Source: Candidatus Nanosynbacter colneyensis (lineage in GTDB: Bacteria; Patescibacteriota; Saccharimonadia; Saccharimonadales; Saccharimonadaceae). From it: DNA of 7,507 nt. Location: assembly GCA_024330325.1 (NCBI GenBank), contig JANDWE010000076.1, positions 1-7,507 of the forward strand. Reading direction: 5' to 3'. How positions within the stretch are numbered: position 1 is the first letter of the stretch; each line of letters opens with the position of its first letter. The notes under the pieces were generated by a model. It saw nothing but the letters and a program-made list of their open reading frames with translations, had not been told where the DNA came from and did no database searches. Below are positions 1,521-5,225 of the stretch, piece after piece. A program made the translations under genes and the position numbers.

Positions 1521-1528
1521 TAACATTG

Positions 1529-1567
1529 GCTTTCATTGACAAGTCGAGTAAATCCTTGTCCGAAAGC
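1529..1567 (+). ncRNA. conserved two-stem leader motif, copy A
   Basis: The predicted RNA 5' end folds into an outer stem GCTTT (1529-1533) with AAAGC (1563-1567), and an inner stem GACAAG (1538-1543) with CTTGTC (1555-1560). The segment from TTGTCCGAAAGCG to CAAGCAG (1556-1583) recurs almost base for base in cassette 3 (3523-3550). CTTGTC could instead pair with the second GACAAG at 1575-1580, so two exclusive folds are possible. No known riboswitch or ribozyme class was recognised. Confidence 0.5.
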
Positions 1568-1573
1568 GTACCT

Positions 1574-1583
1574 TGACAAGCAG
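1574..1583 (+). repeat. TGACAAGCAG element, copy 1 (5' leader of gene 1)
   Basis: One of four copies of TGACAAGCAG in the island. The others are 2611-2620 (+), 3541-3550 (+) and 4190-4199 (- strand). With its 3' flank, bases 1577-1587 are an exact reverse complement of 2668-2678 in the 3' UTR of the same cassette. Confidence 0.75.
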
Positions 1584-1609
1584 ATGATTATAAGAAAGAC
1601 GAAACTTAA

Positions 1610-1673
1610 GCATGAAGCGAGGTTTTGGTTGTTGATAGAAGATGTAATTGACAATTGAAATCTCGTTTCATGC
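1610..1673 (+). ncRNA. 27-bp leader hairpin A
   Basis: Bases 1610-1636 pair with 1647-1673 without a single mismatch: 27 pairs, 7 of them G.U, around a 10-nt loop (1637-1646). A few further pairs extend the stem outward to about 1603/1680. Read on the - strand the seven G.U pairs would be A.C mismatches, so the structure belongs to the + strand RNA, i.e. the leader of gene 1. The ATG at 1612 inside the left arm opens a 7-codon reading frame (1612-1635) with no clear ribosome site. The function is unknown; a long perfect duplex of this kind is a possible RNase III site or mRNA stabiliser. Confidence 0.75.
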
Positions 1674-1694
1674 TCAAATTAGGTAGCAGCATGG

Positions 1695-1714
1695 TCTTTG
1701 TCGAAAGGCAAAGA
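1695..1714 (+). promoter_or_regulatory. ribosome site of gene 1 in a small hairpin
   Basis: TCTTTG (1695-1700) can pair with CAAAGA (1709-1714). This places the likely Shine-Dalgarno sequence GAAAGG (1703-1708) in the loop and the A of the ATG at the stem base. GAAAGG is 5 nt from the ATG at 1714 and decides that start. Confidence 0.45.
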
Positions 1715-2583
1715 TGGCAACCGCCGCGAGAGATAGGAAGGAAGAGGAAGTGGAACGCTCACTCACCGTTCGCACTAGGTTGTCTTGTGGAGTAATTTCC
1801 CGCCAAGAGGTGCCTATTGGCGGACCTAGCACTACCGATAATCCCAAAACTTTCCGTGGTGCACACATCACCGTTGCAAACAACTGGGACAAGAATACCT
1901 TGTCTGTTTACAATGGCAAAGCGTTAGTCTACACGAACAGCGGCGAAATTGTCGCTTCAGGTGGACGCATCACCGCCAACAACAAGGAGAAGAATACCTG
2001 GTCCGTTTACAACGGCGAGGTATATACCGACCCGGACACTGGTGAGGTTATCGTCGACGGTATTTTATTGACCGCAGATGGCGAGCAGGAAACTGTCACT
2101 GCTCTTAACGCGGATCTCATCACCGATAAAGAAACCGTTTCACTCAAAAGCGATCGCATCGAGCTTACCTACAACGACCGCTCAATAGGCATCACCGTAT
2201 CAGGCGGAAAAGCTGAGGGCGAGACCAAAGCCAAACTAAATATTGGCAAGGACAAAAACGTCATCTCATTTGATGGCAAATCCATCGTCGTGGAGTGCGG
2301 CGACGACATAGAGATATCCGCTGAATATGCCAACATGTGCGTTAACAGCGCCGAAGGTAAGCTCCACCTGGAAGGTAGCGATGCCAATTTCCGTGCTGGC
2401 GAAGCAGAACGCTTCATTCCAAAGGTCAAGAACGCATGCGTAGACCTTGCCACCGGCAATATCTATTGCAATGGTGAATTTGTCTGCTGCGCGCCTCTAC
2501 TGGGTGGGCAGCTCAGGAAGCTATTCAAGGTCGGTCCGAAGCCTGCCTCAACTCTAGCCTCTAGCCTACTGACTTCTTACTAA
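1714..2583 (+). CDS. beta-rich repeat protein of unknown function (island gene 1)
   Basis: A protein of 289 aa that I do not recognise. There is no signal peptide and no membrane segment. After a charged N-terminus (residues 1-25) comes a 33-residue tandem repeat: ANNWDKNTLSVYNG at 55-68 and ANNKEKNTWSVYNG at 88-101, each followed by a strand and turn of the type G-E-I/V-x-V. From 110 to 255 the protein continues as short alternating strands and Gly/Asn/Asp turns (DGKSIVVECGDDIEISAE, EGKLHLEGSDANFRAGE). This pattern suggests a stacked beta structure such as a beta-helix or spike-like fold (inference). The C-terminal region holds four cysteines (242, 252, 258, 259) and a positively charged segment near 268-276. 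It has its own promoter, long structured leader, 3' UTR hairpin and terminator. The coding nature is supported by the repeat being conserved at protein level with synonymous changes. Confidence 0.85.
   Translation: MATAARDRKEEEVERSLTVRTRLSCGVISRQEVPIGGPSTTDNPKTFRGAHITVANNWDKNTLSVYNGKALVYTNSGEIVASGGRITANNKEKNTWSVYNGEVYTDPDTGEVIVDGILLTADGEQETVTALNADLITDKETVSLKSDRIELTYNDRSIGITVSGGKAEGETKAKLNIGKDKNVISFDGKSIVVECGDDIEISAEYANMCVNSAEGKLHLEGSDANFRAGEAERFIPKVKNACVDLATGNIYCNGEFVCCAPLLGGQLRKLFKVGPKPASTLASSLLTSY
1879..2016 (+). repeat. 39-bp direct repeat with 99-bp period inside gene 1
   Basis: Copy one at 1879-1917 and copy two at 1978-2016 share AACAAC, then AAGAATACCT, then GTTTACAA and GGC. Differences include third-position changes (for example AAT/AAC) as well as the replacement of WD by KE. 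The 99-bp period equals a 33-residue protein repeat, consistent with an internal duplication under protein-level selection. Confidence 0.8.
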
Positions 2584-2603
2584 TATTAAGAAATCAGGGC
2601 AAC

Positions 2604-2687
2604 TGAGTAGTGACAAGCAGACGGTAATATCAAACTGATGTCGCGGCCCGACGCCTAGTATTATATCTCATCTGCTTGCACTACTCA
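2604..2687 (+). ncRNA. 3' UTR hairpin B, downstream of gene 1
   Basis: The outer stem is 2604-2612 with 2679-2687 (9 bp). A single bulged A2613 follows, then 2614-2621 with 2671-2678 (8 bp), then after small internal loops 2625-2630 with 2658-2663 and an apical hairpin 2640-2643 with 2649-2652. The left arm contains TGACAAGCAG (2611-2620), so it repeats the 5' leader element of the same cassette. The right arm can therefore pair either locally or with the leader at 1577-1587. The canonical terminator follows at 2701, so this hairpin has some other role. Confidence 0.7.
2611..2620 (+). repeat. TGACAAGCAG element, copy 2 (3' UTR of gene 1)
   Basis: This copy lies in the left arm of hairpin B. 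Together with its 3' flank (ACGGTAATAT) it resembles the leader copy and flank at 1574-1592, so cassette 1 carries this element at both ends of its transcript in the same orientation. Confidence 0.7.
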
Positions 2688-2700
2688 TTGGAAATTATCA

Positions 2701-2724
2701 AGTCCCAACTGGGGCTGTTTTTTT
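2701..2724 (+). terminator. rho-independent terminator of gene 1
   Basis: AGTCCC (2701-2706), loop AACT, GGGGCT (2711-2716; one T.G pair), then G and seven T residues (2718-2724). This is a textbook intrinsic terminator, seven bases before promoter B. Confidence 0.85.
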
Positions 2725-2730
2725 ATTCTA

Positions 2731-3461: not shown

Positions 3462-3490
3462 TTGACTTTTTTATGCAAGTGTGGTATAAA
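3462..3490 (+). promoter_or_regulatory. island promoter C (gene 3)
   Basis: TTGACT (3462-3467), a 17-bp spacer and TATAAA (3485-3490), with TG at 3482-3483. GCTTTT follows at the same distance as in promoters A and B. The predicted 5' UTR is about 209 nt. Confidence 0.87.
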
Positions 3491-3498
3491 TAATATCA

Positions 3499-3534
3499 GC
3501 TTTTGTTGACGGAACAAATGTTTTGTCCGAAAGC
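3499..3534 (+). ncRNA. conserved two-stem leader motif, copy C
   Basis: GCTTT (3499-3503) pairs with AAAGC (3530-3534). Inside it, CGGA (3510-3513) and CAAA (3515-3518) pair with TTTGTCCG (3522-3529), with one bulged A. The inner stem differs in sequence from copy A but keeps its position between the same outer stem, and the 3' side TTGTCCGAAAGCG is shared. A changed but still paired inner stem is weak evidence of covariation. Confidence 0.5.
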
Positions 3535-3540
3535 GCACTT

Positions 3541-3550
3541 TGACAAGCAG
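3541..3550 (+). repeat. TGACAAGCAG element, copy 3 (5' leader of gene 3)
   Basis: The element together with U3540 and the downstream GAGAATA (3553-3559) is complementary to 4183-4200 in the 3' UTR of the same transcript: 18 pairs, one G.U, and a 2-nt bulge at 3551-3552. Confidence 0.75.
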
Positions 3551-3560
3551 TTGAGAATAA

Positions 3561-3627
3561 AGCAAGGTGAGATTTTATGGCGTTATTTTAGCGGAAGCAA
3601 AATAGTGTCGTGAAACCTCATCTTGCT
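3561..3627 (+). ncRNA. 29-position leader hairpin C with GNRA-type loop
   Basis: Bases 3561-3589 face 3599-3627: 28 pairs (six G.U) and a single A.C mismatch (3572/3616). The apical 9 nt, AGCGGAAGC, can add two G-C pairs closing a GGAA loop. It occupies the same place as hairpin A (just after the TGACAAGCAG element) and is nearly the same length, yet most of the sequence differs. The similarity is therefore in structure rather than sequence. Its left arm contains a 4-codon frame, ATG-GCG-TTA-TTT-TAG at 3577-3591, with AGGTGA 6 nt upstream. Confidence 0.75.
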
Positions 3628-3652
3628 CACACGTCATTCGGATGTAAGAGCA

Positions 3653-3685
3653 GTGTTTTTTATAAAACACGGACATTCCCGTCCG
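3653..3685 (+). ncRNA. two small leader hairpins before gene 3
   Basis: GTGTTTT (3653-3659) pairs with AAAACAC (3664-3670) around TTAT. Next to it, GGAC (3671-3674) pairs with GTCC (3681-3684), and CGGAC/GTCCG is possible if C3670 is shared. They end four bases before the ribosome site of gene 3, so they may stack with it or limit access to it. Confidence 0.45.
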
Positions 3686-3705
3686 GGTGAGGAGAAAGGT
3701 TCGTC

Positions 3706-4128
3706 ATGCGCAGTCGTAGTAGTGAGATTGGCGTAAAGGAATACGCCATTTGCTTCATCGTAGTTCTTGCTATCTGCTTCGGATTTAAAGCCTGCCACAC
3801 ATCAATAGAGCAGGGGAACTGGCACGAAGAAGTCGTCACCGTCTGCAGCAAAGAAGTAGCCACGGTAGGGAGCGGCGATAGCATCTCCCATCAGTACAGA
3901 GTGTACACTTCAGGACAAGTGTACACGGTTACAGATTACTATGGGTCTAACGGGCATAGGTTTAATAGCGCCGATATCTACGGCAGAATTGAGCCAGGCA
4001 AAGTCTACAGGATCAAGTCGTTTGGTTACCGAGTTCCGGCACTCTCACGCTTCTGGAACATTGAGACCATTGAATTAACGCAGCAGGAGCCCACCGGCAC
4101 CTGCGGGCTAACGCCGTCGAACAATTGA
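3706..4128 (+). CDS. small membrane-anchored protein of unknown function (island gene 3)
   Basis: A protein of 140 aa. A single hydrophobic segment at residues 13-28 follows a basic N-terminus (MRSRSSEIGVKEY), so the protein is probably anchored with the rest outside the cell membrane. The outer domain (40-125) is a small beta-rich unit: EVVTVCSKE, QYRVYTSGQVYTVTD, RFNSADIYGRIEPGKVYRIK and YRVPALSRFWNIETIE. From memory, this order (V-T-V..K.., Y-x-V-x-T, N-S-x-D-x-Y-G-x-I-x-P-G-K-x-Y, G-x-R-x-P-x-x-S-x-x-x-N-I) resembles small proteins of unknown function found in many phages and bacteria. That link was not tested. FKAC is not a proper lipobox. Ribosome site: GAGGAG at 3689-3694 and AAAGG at 3695-3699, the latter 6 nt from the ATG. 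It ends in TGA, the only such stop among the main genes here. Confidence 0.8.
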   Translation: MRSRSSEIGVKEYAICFIVVLAICFGFKACHTSIEQGNWHEEVVTVCSKEVATVGSGDSISHQYRVYTSGQVYTVTDYYGSNGHRFNSADIYGRIEPGKVYRIKSFGYRVPALSRFWNIETIELTQQEPTGTCGLTPSNN

Positions 4129-4135
4129 CGGCCGC

Positions 4136-4204
4136 CGAACTGACATCCGCCGAGAATACTTGGCGGTTCTCTCCGTCGTACATATTCTCCTGCTTGTCAG
4201 TTCG
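4136..4204 (+). ncRNA. 3' UTR hairpin D, downstream of gene 3
   Basis: CGAACTGACA (4136-4145) pairs with TGTCAGTTCG (4195-4204), 10 bp. GAGAATA (4152-4158) pairs with TATTCTC (4183-4189), 7 bp. GGCGG (4162-4166) pairs with CCGTC (4173-4177; one G.U). The right arm holds the reverse complement of TGACAAGCAG (4190-4199). The left arm keeps TGACA and GAGAATA of the leader element of cassette 3 with a changed middle. Bases 4200-4204 are shared with the hammerhead stem III, so the two folds exclude each other. Confidence 0.7.
4190..4199 (-). repeat. TGACAAGCAG element, copy 4 (inverted, 3' UTR of gene 3)
   Basis: CTGCTTGTCA on the + strand is an exact reverse complement of the other three copies, and so is able to base-pair with the leader copies at 1574-1583 and 3541-3550. 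It lies 8 nt before the predicted ribozyme cleavage site. Confidence 0.75.
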
Positions 4205-4254
4205 CTCCATAGATGTGTATCTATGCTGATGAGTCGGAAACGACGAAAGCGAAC
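4200..4254 (+). ncRNA. type III hammerhead ribozyme
   Basis: All parts of a hammerhead are present in order. Stem III 5' strand GTTCGC (4200-4205) is followed by U-C (4206-4207), completing the CUC (NUH) triplet. Stem I is CATAG (4208-4212) with CTATG (4221-4225) around an 8-nt loop. The core CTGATGA is at 4226-4232. Stem II is GTCG (4233-4236) with CGAC (4241-4244), closed by a GAAA loop. Core GAAA is at 4245-4248, then stem III 3' strand GCGAAC at 4249-4254. Every stem is perfectly paired and the invariant core is intact. Stem III is the open one, making it type III. Established chemistry places self-cleavage after C4207, leaving a 2',3'-cyclic phosphate on the gene 3 mRNA. It ends two bases before the stop codon of the opposing GTPase gene, so it would also cut read-through antisense to that gene. 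Confidence 0.92.
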
Positions 4255-4256
4255 TT

Positions 4257-5225
4257 TTATTCAAACATCATCAATTGCGCCGACAAAACTTCACGCGTAA
4301 TTTCGTCCGCACGTTCACCAATTAGCACAATTTTTGCTGGCTCTTCCGCCGCAGAATTAGCTATTTGAATCTGATTTTCCGTTGCCTCCAAATGATACCG
4401 CGCGCCATTATCATCAATAAAACAGCCCTTCATCCGCCTAAGTTTATAAGCGTCAAAAAGTTCCGGCCAAATTTTTTCCAGAGTCGCCGCAGCAATTTTC
4501 ATACCAGAAACATCCAGCACCGCATAAGTCGGATTATCCGGCACGACCAACTCGTCATCGTACTTATCAAAAAACGCCAACAAACCCGACGGCGCCGTCA
4601 TTTTATTGATATCAAATTTACCTCGTGGCGCGCTGAGTACCTTGGCGTAGGGTAGGATGCGCAATTTTTCCTCGTACTCGGCACGTTCATTTTCACCTAG
4701 CAAATCTTCTTTGGTCACTAAAATCATATCCGCCGCTTGCAACTCAATTTCATGCGCCGGCTCAATTCCATGTAAAATCTCATGTGCGTCAATAACATAA
4801 AAACTCTGCGCCAACTCATACTTATTGAATATTTGTGCATTAATCAATTTCTCAACTAAATTCATCGTTCGCGCTACACCAGTCGCCTCAATAAACACTG
4901 GGGCGGGGGAATTGCGACAAAAGTCAAGTAACATTCGTGTCAATGCATGTTTTGACGAACAACAGACACAATCGCCAGCCAAAGTCGTCACAATATCCGC
5001 CAATTTCTCCAGCCGATATCCATCAACATTTTCATTAGCATATTCATTCTCAATCACCCGAGAACCCTTATAGCCACTTTGTTGCAATAAGAACTCAAGA
5101 ACACTAGTTTTCCCAGCACCCAACGAGCCATTCACCAAATATAACGGAACTTTATCGATAACCGCTCGTCCATCATCAAACGGTGCATTAATGCTAAATT
5201 CCAAATCATCGTCGCGTTTTGCCAT
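4257..5225 (-). CDS. COG0523 (CobW/YjiA-type) G3E GTPase
   Basis: A protein of 322 aa. G3E family GTPases of this type act in the cytoplasm as metal chaperones or insertases, often for zinc or cobalt. Visible marks: Walker A GSLGAGKT at residues 33-40 (usually GFLGAGKT); the metal-binding C-x-C-C motif, CVCC, at 86-89 within GDCVCCS; the ATG/ETTG-like segment FIEATGVA at 111-118; and TKED as the G4 base-recognition motif in place of NKxD. The C-terminal part (about 220-322) fits a CobW-C-like domain. No His-rich metal loop is seen, so the metal cannot be named. The start at 5225 is chosen because a TATAAT box lies 6 nt upstream and the reading frame beyond it (to 5384) would run antisense into pth. 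Confidence 0.88.
   Translation of the reverse strand: MAKRDDDLEFSINAPFDDGRAVIDKVPLYLVNGSLGAGKTSVLEFLLQQSGYKGSRVIENEYANENVDGYRLEKLADIVTTLAGDCVCCSSKHALTRMLLDFCRNSPAPVFIEATGVARTMNLVEKLINAQIFNKYELAQSFYVIDAHEILHGIEPAHEIELQAADMILVTKEDLLGENERAEYEEKLRILPYAKVLSAPRGKFDINKMTAPSGLLAFFDKYDDELVVPDNPTYAVLDVSGMKIAAATLEKIWPELFDAYKLRRMKGCFIDDNGARYHLEATENQIQIANSAAEEPAKIVLIGERADEITREVLSAQLMMFE

Follow-up and report, generated by a model that had tools for sequence, protein, structure and literature searches.

The 5′ and 3′ untranslated regions (UTRs) of the icaR mRNA of Staphylococcus aureus pair with one another; the motif involved binds the ribosome site, blocks translation and creates a substrate for RNase III (PMC3868564). 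A long-distance 5′–3′ interaction is also found in the hok and aapA toxin mRNAs, in which one end of the complete mRNA pairs with the other and local folds are an alternative; the pairing hides the ribosome site until 3′ trimming activates translation (PMC6733600). In the hbs mRNA of Bacillus subtilis, a 14-nt interaction between the two UTRs protects the mRNA from nuclease, and RNAIII is a further single bacterial RNA with 5′–3′ pairing (PMC7821165). Hammerhead ribozymes flank single genes in prophages, for which Perreault et al. (2011) proposed gene-length mRNAs; spliced or circular products were sought in that work and none was detected (PMC3088659).

The 7,507-nt stretch of DNA from Candidatus Nanosynbacter colneyensis that was analyzed here (the window) carries a one-gene cassette, cassette 3, in which two complementary arms forming 18 pairs flank the gene and the 3′ arm adjoins a hammerhead motif. 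From this arrangement and from folding predictions, we consider it probable that the trimmed mRNA closes by pairing its own ends. As in hok/aapA (PMC6733600), the mRNA ends are predicted to pair and alternative local structures exist, but trimming in the window would be carried out by a predicted ribozyme, and the 3′ arm would stay on the mRNA. Unlike the icaR motif (PMC3868564), the 5′ arm of the window lies 165 nt upstream of the ATG, its partner adjoins a hammerhead, and the design occurs at many loci. The protection reported for hbs is the effect that we infer for the window, although the hbs passages concern a single gene and describe no ribozyme (PMC7821165). The window hammerhead adjoins a single gene, as the prophage hammerheads do, whereas the prophage passages are silent on arms that pair mRNA ends (PMC3088659). 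As far as a literature search shows, the union of these two known kinds, 5′–3′ UTR pairing and a hammerhead, appears to be new: within the open-licence literature, outside which most subscription papers lie, no paper was found that joins hammerhead ribozymes with Saccharibacteria or the candidate phyla radiation, or self-cleaving ribozymes with TM7 mRNA, and a search for Patescibacteria with hammerhead returned no related paper.

Three one-gene cassettes lie in the window between a cobW-like gene and a neighbor that we take, from its own sequence, to be der; a similar promoter block precedes each, and a Pfam scan placed none of the three genes in a family above cut-off. The parts of cassette 3 are as follows, all on the forward (+) strand.
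3462 to 3490, +: promoter-like TTGACT, 17 nt, TATAAA (direct reading; the block recurs before cassettes 1 and 2 as repeat family D1)
3499 to 3534, +: predicted 5′-terminal hairpin (fold; relatives resemble it in the 3′ strand of the hairpin and in the spacer, TCCGA...ACTTTGACAAGCA)
3540 to 3559, +: 5′ arm, consisting of TTGACAAGCAG, a TT bulge and GAGAATA (direct reading, fold, ensemble and own-match score; covariation in the family)
3561 to 3627, +: long leader hairpin, AGCAAGGTGAG...CTCATCTTGCT (fold)
3612 to 3699, +: RAGATH-10 RNA (RF03147; 84.8 bits, curated cut-off 41.2), the 3′ end of which contains the ribosome site GGAG at 3691–3694
3706 to 4128, +: cassette 3 gene, 140 aa, without a Pfam family (ORF list, Pfam scan; 45 homologues in protein collections)
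4136 to 4145, +: possible local rival strand CGAACTGACA, complement of 4195–4204, that is, of part of the 3′ arm and the hammerhead start (direct reading)
4183 to 4200, +: 3′ arm, complement of 3540–3559 (direct reading, fold, ensemble, own-match score)
4200 to 4254, +: type III hammerhead ribozyme motif with a predicted cut after 4207 (Rfam, 41.8 bits, E 4.6e-7; cut placed by script)

The interval that holds the cassettes appears to be a hypervariable insertion site. The cobW-like protein, which places the window in a Saccharibacterium (TM7), is 94% identical to its counterparts in L001 (TM7 oral taxon 352) and L002 (Candidatus Saccharibacteria), which share one gene in this interval; another gene occupies it in L004, and in L005 der directly abuts the cobW-like gene with nothing between them, as judged by eye. 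Homologues of the cassette 3 protein were found in two of 394 genomes at about 30% identity, and therefore no orthologous series could be built. When payload ORFs of relatives were called mechanically (39, of which 20 were scanned), two Tad4 and two RNA_pol_A_CTD matches exceeded the cut-offs. The Tad4 matches (type I Thoeris inhibitor; scores of 81.7 and 84.8 bits against a cut-off of 25) are payloads of end-paired cassettes in G075:C52 (L127) and G084:C1 (L118) and hint at an anti-defence or phage-linked gene pool; the other two, in G046:C4:115715 (L067) and G121:C51 (L092), are small proteins with an RNA polymerase alpha C-terminal-like domain at their end (scores of 47.8 and 38 bits against a cut-off of 23.8).

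Direct reading confirmed the complementarity that the earlier note had reported between the leader and 3′ UTR of cassette 3, coordinates included. T3540–G3550 pairs with C4190–G4200, with T3540/G4200 as a G-U pair, and GAGAATA at 3553–3559 pairs with TATTCTC at 4183–4189, leaving TT3551–3552 as the single 2-nt bulge, so that 17 of the 18 pairs are Watson–Crick. The core TGACAAGCAG occurs four times in all on the two strands, each time exactly, against an expectation of 0.41 even if up to one mismatch is allowed. Scored against the upstream regions of 88 hammerhead loci, the cassette 3 3′ arm matches its own region better than that of any locus in another genome (score 33, rank 1). The complementarity is thus real. 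The earlier note missed both the hammerhead that begins where the 3′ arm ends and the local rival strand.

The window hammerhead scores below the Rfam cut-off (41.8 versus 48.5 bits for RF00008) with a complete core: CUGAUGA and GAAA are present, with three stems and an opening at stem III. A match above cut-off is found in three of 394 family genomes, and a pattern search found the core intact in 91 of 92 matches. The motif likely cuts the transcript after base 4207. In the relative L004, perfect arms are kept, but the core reads CTGATGG with an altered GAAA, as seen by eye. A different hammerhead type, with 5′ strand AACTGTCC, lies in the 5′ leader of two relatives (L062 and L061; G150:C122 and G081:C11), directly 5′ of an AGGAGG or GAGGAG-like ribosome site and ATG. 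A half-hammerhead in the leader, suggested by the resemblance of GAAAGCGCAC to the ribozyme sequence GAAAGCGAAC, was discarded by eye; GAAAGCGCAC is present only in the window, G001 and G002 among 26 leaders.

The transcript of cassette 3 is predicted to start near 3497. The minimum-energy fold of 3497–4256 includes the end pairing, which has a predicted ensemble probability of 0.99 after trimming and 0.95 before it, with hammerhead stem III at 0.96. The local rival strand at 4136–4145 has a probability of 0.00 in the predicted ensemble of the full RNA. Many leaders, that of the window (3499–3534) included, align with GUUGA on one side of the 5′-terminal hairpin and UCCRA on the other, which could represent a conserved internal-loop motif. 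The RAGATH-10 match lies well above the curated cut-off, and the model covers 82 leader positions only, the end arms and hammerhead of the window falling beyond it. RAGATH-10 was found in nine of 295 family genomes (three above cut-off), four of which (G184, G172, G075 and G156) have a hammerhead match about 1 kb or less downstream on the same strand. A ACAAGGTGAG-like sequence often lies 3′ of the 5′ arm in leaders, and in the window it pairs with the RAGATH-10 5′ strand. The other strand with which that 5′ strand pairs lies beside the ribosome site, so that the leader may contain a second switch.

The earlier note had proposed a general design of end-paired mRNAs, and had suggested scoring within-cassette against between-cassette complementarity in related genomes. 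An RF00008 search of the family of L002 gave 92 matches in 55 of 394 genomes; we take all genomes of this family and of its class to be Saccharibacteria. Removal of five matches (four lacked 500 nt of upstream sequence and one carried N in its tail) and addition of the window left a first set of 88 loci. The 20 bases before each hammerhead were aligned locally with the complement of the region 300–1500 nt upstream, with a threshold score of at least 28 and reversed upstream regions as the control. Duplex energy over the whole region had been rejected as a score, as its tolerance of large loops made it noisy and it gave rank 1 in only 6 of 88 loci. Directly at the boundary, the threshold was reached by 37 of the 88 loci, versus two reversed controls, and the mean score was 25.99 versus 21.26. 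Other offsets gave 0–7 of 88, with the exception of +5 (24 of 88), an offset that still overlaps the arm. None of 20,000 partner permutations reached the observed mean, and the same was true of the 23 loci with the core and the 65 without it taken separately.

A second set of 61 hammerheads from 34 previously unused genomes, obtained by a class-wide search (71 of 392 genomes matched), was put through the unchanged test. Here 16 of 61 loci reached the threshold at the boundary, versus four reversed controls; other offsets gave 1–4, except +5 (14 of 61), own partners ranked first in 13 of 61, and again none of 20,000 permutations reached the observed mean. Matches within cassettes are thus better than those between cassettes in both sets. 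The threshold was missed by 51 of the 88 first-set and 45 of the 61 second-set hammerhead loci, and the sequence comparisons accordingly support a design that is general but not universal. The self-specificity of the extensions beyond the shared core was also borne out: across 27 rows, extensions scored 11.06 with their own partner versus 6.40 (s.d. 0.75) with others, a value reached by 0 of 50,000 permutations, with p 8e-5 (n = 19) after reduction for kinship, the one test from which the near-duplicates G001/G002 and G134/G215 were removed. One genome has six such cassettes, and there an extension is matched about equally well by another cassette and by its own, so that pairing in trans between cassettes is conceivable.

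An out-group of phage hammerheads comprised at least 85 pattern matches in 80 loci, with 20 type III loci that had enough flank. Seven of these 20 scored at least 28, versus one reversed control, among the matches listed; five of the seven tails, again among the matches listed, are palindromic and the remaining two have one and the same sequence, and end pairing at phage hammerheads was set aside as unproven. In four viral contigs (L173, L182, L190 and L199), palindromic hairpins lie directly before type III hammerheads and recur about 900–1200 nt upstream.

Covariation of the arms was examined in an alignment of 41 rows (one of 12 second-set rows was skipped), from which 31 distinct core-type rows were tested. 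Eight of 13 pairs change on both sides, as many as in only 2 of 500 shuffles, and 37 cells changed on both sides versus 10.5 (s.d. 3.1). Pairs 7 and 8 are formed in all 31 rows, each by five pair types. The covariation score was 0.293 versus 0.148, and at most 0.056 when the partner was slid. Paired cells amounted to 91.1% versus 83.6%, falling to 28–50% with the partner slid by 1–3 columns, but these percentages lean upward because the rows were preselected and the 3′ arms anchored at their best match, which favors pairing; the changes on both sides are the stronger evidence. Prediction and covariation both point to an mRNA whose two ends pair with each other. The ratio of G-U to A-C in the leader helix was rejected as proof of RNA pairing: with counts of 7 to 5, or of 17 to 17 under a laxer threshold, it does not tell pairing in RNA from pairing in DNA.

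In many relatives, a local strand may compete with the leader. Complementarity to the boundary within about 110 nt upstream was found in 38 of 88 first-set loci (control 3) and 27 of 61 second-set loci (control 2), with 59 G-U versus 19 A-C in the local helices. At many core-type loci this strand reaches over the ribozyme 5′ strand, in stretches of 26–28 nt at best. The cut site could be scripted in 79 of 93 loci, 75 of which were examined for helix ends; 35 had local helices scoring at least 24. Of these, 18 end short of the ribozyme strand, 12 finish no more than three bases from the cut nucleotide and five extend beyond it. The idea of a rival helix that invariably ends at the cut site was dropped, since only 5 of the 35 do so exactly. 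Among the leader helices, 28 of 35 stop 7–11 nt short of the cut nucleotide and so do not enter the ribozyme strand, and most are therefore compatible with an active hammerhead, whereas long local helices, which may cover that strand, are not. As many relatives carry a local strand able to cover the ribozyme 5′ strand, a switch between leader and local strand is possible.

The preference of the 3′ arm was predicted for 40 trimmed loci drawn from 48 kept by score (a few by hand), a sample preselected for complementarity: the leader was preferred in 31 and the local strand in eight, and hammerhead stem III exceeded 0.5 in 19. Cassette 1 behaves differently from cassette 3. Its elements, on the forward (+) strand, are:
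1574 to 1587, +: leader arm TGACAAGCAGATGA (direct reading, occurrence search)
2605 to 2621, +: local strand, partner 2671–2686, which outcompetes the leader in prediction (ensemble)
2668 to 2680, +: 3′ arm TCATCTGCTTGCA (direct reading, ensemble)
The leader arm and 3′ arm form 13 pairs with A1576 bulged. The local partner is longer, and the predicted ensemble gives it a probability of 0.79 versus 0.00 for the leader. Of the two self-matches on which the earlier note had relied, both exist in the sequence, but end pairing is predicted for cassette 3 only. A locus elsewhere in the genome of L002 (L134, about 3698–4640) resembles window positions 1527–2730 in its leader, local 3′ hairpin and terminator; the local strand wins there too (0.82), no hammerhead was detected in either cassette 1 or L134, and by eye the two local hairpins differ by a change on both sides, from GTG/CAC to GCG/CGC.

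The local strand might be regarded as the true partner, with the 3′ arm folding into a 3′-terminal hairpin after the cut and the leader match being secondary or serving only as a switch input. The frequency of local complementarity in both sets, its excess of G-U over A-C and the predictions for cassette 1 and L134 would fit, but the leader is preferred by 31 to eight among the preselected loci, the local strand has a probability of 0.00 in window cassette 3, and the leader arm shows covariation with the 3′ arm, making this reading improbable. A more serious contender, if still unlikely, is that the main purpose is translational silencing, the 3′ arm acting as a distant anti-ribosome-site element as in hok/aapA, with later 3′ trimming activating the message. 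Among 15 loci at which the start site is clear, nine are predicted to lose at least 0.1 of ribosome-site access when the tail is present, and some 5′ arms contain the ribosome site, for example TGTAAGGAGAAATC-ATG in G162:C1. Access changes little in the other six of the 15, and in the window, where the 5′ arm starts 165 nt before the ATG, the end pairing would not cover the ribosome site as it may in some relatives. Because predicted access there barely changes (0.31 with the tail, 0.38 without), stability is favored as the main effect in the window.

The remaining two readings have very little probability. One is that the arms are terminal inverted repeats of a mobile DNA cassette and act at the DNA level. 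In its favor, a single der/cobW-like site is occupied by different genes in L001, L002 and L004 and, by eye, by none in L005, so that cassettes move or are swapped. The arms differ between loci yet match their own partners, the hammerhead boundary sets the position of the 3′ arm, the promoter and hammerhead of the window lie outside the arms, and the terminal repeats are not identical in all copies, so we regard this as very improbable. Slighter still is the chance that the ends are ligated and close the message into a covalent circle, as a natural equivalent of circular RNA designs with flanking ribozymes. Hammerhead cleavage leaves a 2′,3′-cyclic phosphate, here beside a pairing arm, and some relatives have several hammerheads on one contig; but no ribozyme family matched the leader at E ≤ 1, leaving no 5′-side candidate from a described ribozyme family, and covalent circles are unlikely because RtcB was found in 0 of 52 relatives, compared with 9 of 14 control genomes.

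Closure by paired ends thus remains the reading that we prefer. A mechanism is proposed in which the transcript would start with a hairpin followed by the 5′ arm, and would carry the 3′ arm and hammerhead after the gene. The ribozyme would cut, providing a clean 3′ end beside the arm without a terminator or nuclease, and the arms would hold both ends together. This closed form would hide both ends from nucleases, the 5′ end lying also in the predicted hairpin, and could thereby lengthen the life of the mRNA; the end helix may also restrain translation in those relatives in which the ribosome site and the 5′ arm overlap. In part of the family, where the local strand would compete for the 3′ arm and the ribozyme strand, leader pairing may decide whether the ribozyme folds. 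A bolder and distinctly tentative extension is a self-licensing mRNA, in which the leader arm frees the 3′ arm from a strand that buries the hammerhead 5′ strand and cut site, so that cutting would need an intact 5′ leader and the same helix would close the finished message.

In the literature examined, 5′–3′ UTR pairing in bacteria has been described for individual genes, and what bacterial hammerheads do is largely unexplained. The architecture described here is found at dozens of Saccharibacteria loci, and the covariation points to exact arm mutations for testing. End pairing would give bacterial hammerheads a job, the making of a defined, pairable 3′ end, and would offer a natural model of closed-loop bacterial mRNAs. 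If the self-licensing extension were true, 5′ integrity would gate 3′ maturation across a whole bacterial group.
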